From positions 627,600 through 691,599 of the forward strand of contig NZ_JH719942.1 in assembly GCF_000275825.1 (NCBI RefSeq): a stretch of 64,000 nt of DNA. Direction: 5' to 3'. This DNA comes from Saprospira grandis DSM 2844 (lineage in GTDB: Bacteria; Bacteroidota; Bacteroidia; Chitinophagales; Saprospiraceae). The position numbers and the translations under genes are program-made. Below, one piece after another: positions 5,726-46,046 of this stretch; within the stretch, counting starts at the first letter, position 1; every line of letters begins with the position of its first letter. The notes beneath the pieces were generated by a model. The model was not told where the DNA came from and ran no database searches. It was given only the letters and a program-made list of their open reading frames with translations.

Positions 5726-5791
5726 AAAAAAAAAGACCCGCCCACAAAAATGCGAGCAGGTACTAACCCCTAAAAATGTATGAAGAACAAG
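5726..5791 (-). ncRNA. Candidate small RNA, tandem copy 1
   Basis: On the minus strand a short transcript would begin near 5790, form a 5' GAAC/GTTC hairpin, pass through a linear TTAGGGGTTAG segment and end in an 11-bp hairpin (ACCTGCTCGCA pairing UGUGGGCGGGU) followed by nine Ts. A nearly identical unit lies at 5889-5955. In this copy the stem has a U.G where copy 2 has U-A, so pairing is kept. A promoter with the expected spacing lies just upstream. Known: this is the layout of a Bacteroidota intergenic sRNA. Inference: function unknown. Confidence 0.6.
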
Positions 5792-5796
5792 TAGTT

Positions 5797-5888: not shown

Positions 5889-5955
5889 AAAAAAAAGACC
5901 TGCCCACAAAAATGCGAGCAGGTACTAACCCCTAAAAAATGTATGAAGAACAAGT
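5889..5955 (-). ncRNA. Candidate small RNA, tandem copy 2
   Basis: Direct repeat of the unit at 5726-5791, about 160 bp away. It has the same 5' GAAC/GTTC hairpin, linear segment and terminator hairpin (here ACCTGC/GCAGGT, fully paired) with an eight-T tail. A perfect -7 box TATATTTG lies at 5960-5967 on the minus strand; no TTTG is visible at -33, where the DNA is simply AT-rich. The two copies lie downstream of the nitrilase gene on the same strand and could also serve as its terminators. Confidence 0.6.
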
Positions 5956-6048
5956 AGTTCAAATATACTATATAATAATTTATTATAGTGTATAATTTAA
6001 GTTTTTGCTCCCTCTAAGCCTCTAAATAGAATAATTCTATACAAAAGT

Positions 6049-44759: not shown

Positions 44760-45719
44760 ATGGCTGTATTAGTATTTGCCGAAAGCCTAACAGGCAGTAT
44801 CAAGAAAATTGCCCAAGAAGCCGTAGCCTACGGTTATCAGGCGGCCCAAGCTATGGGTACAGAATGTATCGCCCTTACAATTGGCCAAGCCGATGGCGCT
44901 GGCGATTTGGGCCTTTATGGCGCTGCTAAGGTCTACAATGTAGACGCTAGCAACGATTTTGACGCTCAGGTTTATGCCAGCATTTTGGGCCAAGCGGCCA
45001 ATAAATTTGGTGCTGACCTTATCGTTTTTGCTCACTCTTCTTCTGGAAAGTCTTTGGCTGGCCGCCTTGCCGCTCGCTTTGATGCCGCTTTGGTCACTGC
45101 CGCCACTAGCATTCCTACTGTTGCCGATGGCGGTCTGCATATCAGCAAAGGGGTATTCTCTGGTAAAGCGTTTGCCACTTATGCCCTCAAAACAGACAAA
45201 AAAGTAGTCACTATCGCCGGAAATACGTTCCGCCCCACTGAAGTAGGCGCTGCTGTTGCCATTGAATCCGTAAGCCTAGATGCCGCCACTGGCCGCATCA
45301 AGGTAAAAGAAGTGAACACCGTTACTGGTGCCGTTCCTTTGCCCGAAGCCGAATTGGTGGTTTCTGCTGGCCGTGGGATGAAAGGTCCCGAAAACTGGGG
45401 AATCATCGAGGAACTAGCCGGTACGCTTGGTGCCGCAACCGCTTGCTCTCGCCCAGTTGCCGATGTACACTGGCGCCCTCACCATGAGCATGTAGGCCAA
45501 ACTGGGGTGGCTATCCGTCCCACGCTTTACTTTGCTATCGGTATTTCAGGAGCTATTCAGCACCTGGCTGGAGTTAACCAATCTAAGGTGATTGTAGTCA
45601 TCAATAAAGATCCTGAAGCTCCCTTCTTCAAAGCTGCTGACTATGGCGTTGTTGGCGACCTCTTCGATGTGGTGCCCAAACTAAATGCCGCTCTCGCTAA
45701 ATTTAAGGCCAATAACTAA
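44760..45719 (+). CDS. etfA: Electron transfer flavoprotein alpha subunit
   Basis: 319 aa. N-terminal domain I, then the C-terminal FAD domain with AELVVSAGRGMKGPENW, HEHVGQTGVAIRPTLYFAIGISGAIQHLAG (about 235-270), KVIVVINKDPEAPFFKAADYGVVGDLF, the classic FAD-binding signature. Role: FAD-carrying half of the electron transfer flavoprotein. Followed by a strong terminator. Confidence 0.96.
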   Translation: MAVLVFAESLTGSIKKIAQEAVAYGYQAAQAMGTECIALTIGQADGAGDLGLYGAAKVYNVDASNDFDAQVYASILGQAANKFGADLIVFAHSSSGKSLAGRLAARFDAALVTAATSIPTVADGGLHISKGVFSGKAFATYALKTDKKVVTIAGNTFRPTEVGAAVAIESVSLDAATGRIKVKEVNTVTGAVPLPEAELVVSAGRGMKGPENWGIIEELAGTLGAATACSRPVADVHWRPHHEHVGQTGVAIRPTLYFAIGISGAIQHLAGVNQSKVIVVINKDPEAPFFKAADYGVVGDLFDVVPKLNAALAKFKANN

Positions 45720-45740
45720 GCCTTTACTTCTGCGAATAAA

Positions 45741-45775
45741 AAAAACCTAGTTGCATAGCAACTAGGTTTTTTTTT
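45741..45775 (+). terminator. Terminator of etfBA
   Basis: AACCTAGTTGC-ata-GCAACTAGGTT (perfect 11-bp stem) followed by eight or nine Ts, 25 bp past the stop. Confidence 0.96.
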
Positions 45776-45797: not shown

Positions 45798-45884
45798 AAA
45801 AAAAAGAGCGGACAACCTCCTCAGGCTGCCCGCTTCTGCCAAAATACATTAACCTAACTAACTATTATGAACCTCTAATAGTTA
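45798..45884 (-). ncRNA. Candidate small RNA, third member of the family
   Basis: On the minus strand: predicted start at about 45884; a perfect 8-bp 5' hairpin (TAACTATT/AATAGTTA, 10-nt loop); a linear part with TTAGGTTAATG; then a 10-bp hairpin with two mismatches (AGCGG-x-CA-x-CCT) and eight Ts. The promoter upstream is well spaced. Architecture and linear sequence resemble the RNAs at 5726-5955, suggesting one family. It lies between etfA and the MarC gene; no antisense partner in the window is evident. Confidence 0.65.
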
Positions 45885-45889
45885 CAGTA

Positions 45890-45921
45890 CAAACTTACAA
45901 ATATAAAAATTGGCAGCCAAA
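45890..45921 (-). promoter_or_regulatory. Promoter of the third small RNA
   Basis: Minus strand TTTG (45918-45921), 20-nt spacer, TAAGTTTG (45890-45897): an exact -33/-7 match to the Bacteroidota consensus. A second -7-like TATATTTG directly overlaps the spacer. Confidence 0.65.
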
Positions 45922-46046
45922 TAAAAAAGTGTTTTTTTGTTTTTTGTTTAACAAAGAGCAGCCTGATCTCCCCTTCTTAGCCTTAATTTAAGACTTACTT
46001 TAGTTTATCATAACGTAGATGAGTAGCAAAAAACTAAGGACTTTTA

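Follow-up and report, generated by a model that had tools for sequence, protein, structure and literature searches.

A probable gene for a trans-acting small RNA between etfA and marC in Saprospira

Small RNAs (sRNAs) of the Bacteroidota have been studied mainly in Bacteroides, and Shine-Dalgarno sequences are rare in this phylum; to our knowledge, Hfq is mostly missing from it. We asked whether the minus strand between etfA and a MarC-family gene of Saprospira grandis DSM 2844, within a stretch of 64,000 nt that we refer to as the window, holds an sRNA gene and, if so, to which other RNAs this gene is related. The first-pass annotation had read the locus as the third member of a dispersed family of regulatory RNAs with a near-perfect promoter, and had likened its linear part (TTCATA, TTAGG, GTTA) to two tandem RNAs situated 40 kb away. 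Our analysis suggests that the locus is probably a free-standing gene, present in one copy, which encodes an 87-nt base-pairing sRNA that acts in trans, with the linker between its two hairpins as the seed and a promoter of the sigma-ABfr type. No such RNA was described in the literature that we searched for Saprospira together with small RNA.

The minus-strand locus at 45798-45921 consists of a promoter, a perfect 9-bp hairpin, a linker and a strong terminator, in that order (Table 1), and the annotated elements TTTG-N20-TAAGTTTG, 5' hairpin and terminator are all present there. The transcription start was placed on the basis of Flavobacterium psychrophilum (PMC9723704), in which the -7 box maps to positions -12 to -5, and the predicted +1 falls one base ahead of the 5' hairpin. 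Within the predicted transcript, we found no start codon with a downstream stop. The 88-nt RNA stretch has a predicted folding energy of -31.7 kcal/mol (z = -5.2), and 0 of 200 shuffles were equally stable. The fold prediction leaves the linker single-stranded or weakly paired, with the ability to pair weakly with itself. Although the words TTCATA, TTAGG and GTTA do occur in this RNA, TTCATA lies partly in the loop and stem of the hairpin and not in the linear part.

Table 1. Features of the sRNA locus, its neighbours and the tandem RNAs (window positions)
Feature	Position	Strand	Remarks
-33 box, TTTG	45918-45921	-	identified in the sequence; invariant in four Saprospira genomes
-7 box, TAAGTTTG (TAnnTTTG consensus)	45890-45897	-	N20 after the -33 box; invariant in four Saprospira genomes
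Predicted 87-nt sRNA	45799-45885	-	+1 at G45885; without ORF; fold z = -5.2
5'-end hairpin	45859-45884	-	9 perfect pairs (45884-45876 / 45867-45859, 100%); 8-nt loop
Linker, proposed seed	45836-45858 (23 nt)	-	core GTTAGGTTAATGTATTTT at 45858-45841; core also in a second genus
Terminator hairpin	45807-45834	-	12 pairs, 7 of them G-C; GAGG loop; C and U8 follow, as far as 45798
etfA	44760-45719	+
Terminator-like inverted repeat of etfA	45738-45774
MarC-family gene	to 46682	+	Pfam
Tandem RNAs	5733-5796 and 5895-5966	-	near-identical units TTTGAACTACTTGTTCTTCATACATTTTT(T)AGGGGTTAGTACC plus terminator

In this phylum, the -7 box is mainly TAnnTTTG (PMC9723704). Within the window, the promoter pattern with a spacing of 17-23 occurs 7 times compared to an expected 3.2, and by itself it is weak evidence for a gene. 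At a spacing of 18-21 in 2.46 Mb of the same genome, 161 matches were found versus 41 and 27 in two controls, making the motif about four times commoner than its reversed control (161 versus 41). When an intergenic terminator was required no more than 220 nt beyond TTTG-N18-21-TAnnTTTG, 10 loci remained in these 2.46 Mb: six tRNA genes (Leu, Arg, Val, Pro and two Phe, as identified by ARAGORN), one SRP-RNA-like gene (Rfam RF04183, 44 bits, E 6e-8, under the cut-off of 55.2), the sRNA locus and two others that are unassigned. In this genome, the class defined by promoter plus terminator is made up almost only of stable RNA genes. Because the loci that carry this combination are mostly such genes, the promoter of the sRNA belongs to the stable-RNA-gene class, and the combination serves well for locating stable RNA genes in Saprospira. 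The two intergenic loci that share this promoter spacing and have a terminator, near G000:C2 530130 (minus strand) and 1370833 (plus strand), are candidate sRNAs, and the first of these contains TTTTTAGGGG, as do the tandem RNAs.

Conservation was assessed by blastn, in which three further genomes of Saprospira (G001, G002 and G005) matched the locus at 93-95%. The sRNA is kept almost unchanged across these four closely related marine genomes. In the four-genome alignment, variable columns number 0 of 23 in the linker, 1 of 27 in the 5' hairpin (the one being in the loop), 3 of 36 in the promoter and 4 of 29 in the terminator, where the altered stem bases of the other genomes still fold as a hairpin. 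Outside the RNA, 18 of the 33 columns just past the terminator and 29 of the 119 upstream vary, and the end of the etfA coding sequence has 27 of 260 (10%) in the same alignment; the sRNA is therefore kept at least as well as neighbouring etfA. Two more distant genomes that are filed in the genus (G003 and G004) gave no match to the sRNA. A search for conserved synteny elsewhere in the Saprospiraceae, downstream of 26 more distant EtfA loci, likewise yielded no convincing candidate.

The tandem RNAs (Table 1) resemble the sRNA in lying in the same genome and on the same strand, in carrying their own terminators and in having their own matches in the same four Saprospira genomes, with two copies also in G002 and with matches of the stretch to G001 and G005 at 84%. 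A dispersed paralogous family that includes both tandem RNAs, with this RNA as the third, would account for the common layout, in which a short 5' part leads into a linear part and then a terminator, and for the words TTCATA, TTAGG and GTTA. However, in alignments with the tandem copies, between 76 and 459 of the 500 dinucleotide shuffles scored as high as the sRNA, so that the likeness of the linear parts is the same as shuffled sequence gives. The 5' half of the tandem RNAs is largely linear and lacks the perfect 5' hairpin. Furthermore, a covariance model built from the sRNA (R1) matched the whole genome at a single place, and no convincing paralog emerged in 2.46 Mb from a second model that included the relative L291 described below. 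We therefore consider membership in such a family very unlikely, and the tandem RNAs are likely a separate sRNA pair.

Among 101 relatives, strong matches to model R1 were confined to the four Saprospira genomes, and weak matches were also obtained. One weak match, L291, comes from a second genus (g4) and has the linker GTTAGGGTTTAATGTATTTT compared to GTTAGGTTAATGTATTTT in the Saprospira sRNA. The linker core, written as GTTAGG-N0-2-TTAATGTATTTT, occurs in 8 of 248 Saprospiraceae genomes, which are the four Saprospira genomes and all four of the g4 genomes sampled, whereas the reversed control of the pattern matched once in the 248 genomes. This pattern was partly fitted to L291, and the independent evidence lies in the three other g4 genomes and in the shared context. 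Flanking elements in g4 were compared for one copy, L291, in which a TAnnTTTG box (TACATTTG, with a poor -33 box) and a 5'-end hairpin precede the core and a GAGG-loop terminator follows it at a spacing like that of the Saprospira sRNA; the sequence of its 5' hairpin is unlike that of the Saprospira sRNA. The alignment of linker plus terminator with L291 scored 26, compared to 24 for the best unrelated window among about 8,200 T-run windows and 18 for the best of 5,000 shuffles. Four T-run windows that scored 55-63 fit the four etfA loci, where the Saprospira RNA itself is located.

The first-pass annotation's view of the locus as a small-RNA gene with a near-perfect promoter is supported by the architecture, the tRNA genes that share the promoter, the presence of the sRNA in four Saprospira genomes and its relative in g4. 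The conservation check that it proposed as a means of refutation left the RNA itself standing. The covariance search that it suggested gave strong matches in Saprospira and a weak one in L291, and returned no second copy in the genome. The promoter pattern alone is common enough in the window that a chance promoter next to a terminator, with no gene at all, has to be weighed. This explanation is scarcely probable, given that the conserved stretch in the four genomes coincides with the predicted transcript and does not extend past it, and that g4 carries the linker core as well. Apart from L291, the covariance matches in other genera (E 7e-5 to 0.08) were mostly terminators that had no linker or promoter. 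Matches of the linker core in IMG/VR seem fortuitous, none of them being followed by a terminator, and the plasmids searched gave no match. One g4 genome, G158, has two linker cores (C17:3796-3815 and C444:11311-11329), one of them a base shorter, and a duplication of the sRNA is possible there.

The position of the sRNA between etfA and marC is the same in all four Saprospira genomes, as would be expected of a transcribed cis-acting element, for example one whose transcription affects etfA or marC. Because etfA has its own terminator-like inverted repeat, before which the sRNA ends, the RNA does not run antisense to etfA and does not form a leader of marC, and marC is transcribed away from it. 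Moreover, L291 is located upstream of a SurA/PpiD-like gene, in a neighbourhood that differs from that of Saprospira. Given that the gene neighbours differ between the two genera, action in trans is favoured, and we regard a role in cis as improbable.

We propose that a sigma-ABfr-type promoter (TTTG / TAnnTTTG), as found at tRNA genes here, would drive transcription of the minus strand and that the intrinsic terminator of the sRNA would end it, with the 5'-end hairpin protecting the RNA. The linker is the natural seed because it is the most conserved part of the RNA and is single-stranded or weakly paired. In this model, the invariant GUUAGGUUAAUGUAUUUU would pair with one mRNA or a small number of mRNAs at the translation-initiation region and thereby block ribosome entry, possibly with the help of the genome's single RRM protein. 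A structured RNA that works through protein binding, in a 6S-like or sponge-like manner, would also fit the strong hairpins at either end and the GAGG loop common to both genera. However, conservation is strongest in the linker and not in the hairpins, the two genera have different 5' hairpin sequences and there is no Rfam match, and this alternative to base pairing appears unlikely to us.

In the window and in the loci with related copies, no Rfam family reached its gathering score. FopS of Bacteroides thetaiotaomicron is a 14-copy family in which the R1 seed occupies the single-stranded 5' end, and its genes have a canonical sigma-ABfr promoter (PMC11697453). The sRNA was rejected as a FopS member (RF04319) on the grounds that its locus scored 15 bits against a gathering cut-off of 56 (no site in the genome was over the cut-off), that its 5' end is a 9-bp hairpin and not a single-stranded seed end, and that it is single-copy and not part of a multi-copy paralogous family. 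Among the sub-threshold FopS matches in this genome, the highest-scoring one (25 bits), L293 at G000:C2:2843515-2843603 on the minus strand, has a TAAATTTG box, AGTTTTTAGGGTTTAAG and a terminator and is itself a candidate sRNA. Like FopS and GibS (PMC11697453), the Saprospira RNA is a short Bacteroidota sRNA with a single-stranded seed followed by a terminator hairpin; the known targets of FopS and GibS are paired at the translation-initiation region, the site at which we also propose pairing for the Saprospira RNA. The locus is a credible conserved sRNA gene that is akin to the GibS/FopS type in layout, yet is not FopS. The Rfp RNAs of F. psychrophilum (PMC9723704) are also free-standing structured RNAs with mostly predicted targets, but they represent a different class of the phylum and are likened to the sRNA here by description and not by sequence. 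The ribosomal protein L20 leader (RF00558) was rejected at 31.5 bits versus a gathering score of 58.7; its match spans the promoter, and such leaders are expected upstream of L20 genes, whereas the sRNA adjoins etfA and marC.

A target scan covered about 1,800 predicted translation-initiation regions from part of the genome. The best duplex (-34.7 kcal/mol) was with the leader of the gene at C2:1639615-1640946 (minus strand); Pfam assigns peptidoglycan-binding and CHAP domains to the product of the G002 ortholog of this gene. The G002 leader was independently found by blastn as a near-complement of the sRNA (L027). In this leader, CCTAACTAACTTTTAAT before the start codon is kept in all four species, with duplexes of -32 to -41 kcal/mol, although these leaders are orthologous and hence not independent of one another. 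One of 12 shuffled queries obtained a better top target energy than the sRNA, and seed complements at start codons showed no enrichment beyond composition bias. The target prediction suggested by the annotation therefore produced a top-ranked candidate but no general signal at start codons, and we name the CHAP/peptidoglycan-binding leader as a tentative and rather doubtful target, based on modelled duplexes. Another match in a 5' leader (L118/L170, C2:3088674) was rejected as absent from the sister genomes at the same stringency, and the antisense matches L028 and L029, situated at a gene's 3' end, were judged to be chance. Many ACCTAACTA sites are 21-bp tandem repeats (CCAGACCTAACTAGTTTAC..), which occur at three distant places, G000:C2:202698-202895, 2060339-2060494 and 2281692-2281742.

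The partner of FopS and GibS is the RRM protein RbpB (PMC11697453), and the Saprospira genome also encodes an RRM protein, a single one with a glycine-rich tail (C2:3121937-3122146). By analogy with RbpB of Bacteroides, this protein is a plausible partner of the sRNA. A combined reading would place the sRNA in a new Saprospiraceae family in which an 18-nt linker seed is kept across two genera while both flanking hairpins have changed, the RRM protein is the partner and translation of the CHAP/peptidoglycan-binding gene is repressed; taken as a whole, we think this improbable. If the target is true, the sRNA would act on a peptidoglycan-hydrolase-like gene in a predatory, gliding Saprospira. 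A small sRNA that is encoded once and whose seed is conserved between genera would, in addition, allow regulation by base pairing to be tested cleanly in bacteria other than the gut species.

Between the sRNA and marC, a block of approximately 45 nt (window positions of about 45975-46020) that contains the palindrome CTTAA(A/T)TTAAG is almost unchanged in the four genomes while its surroundings vary, and it is possibly a regulator site or a leader of marC.
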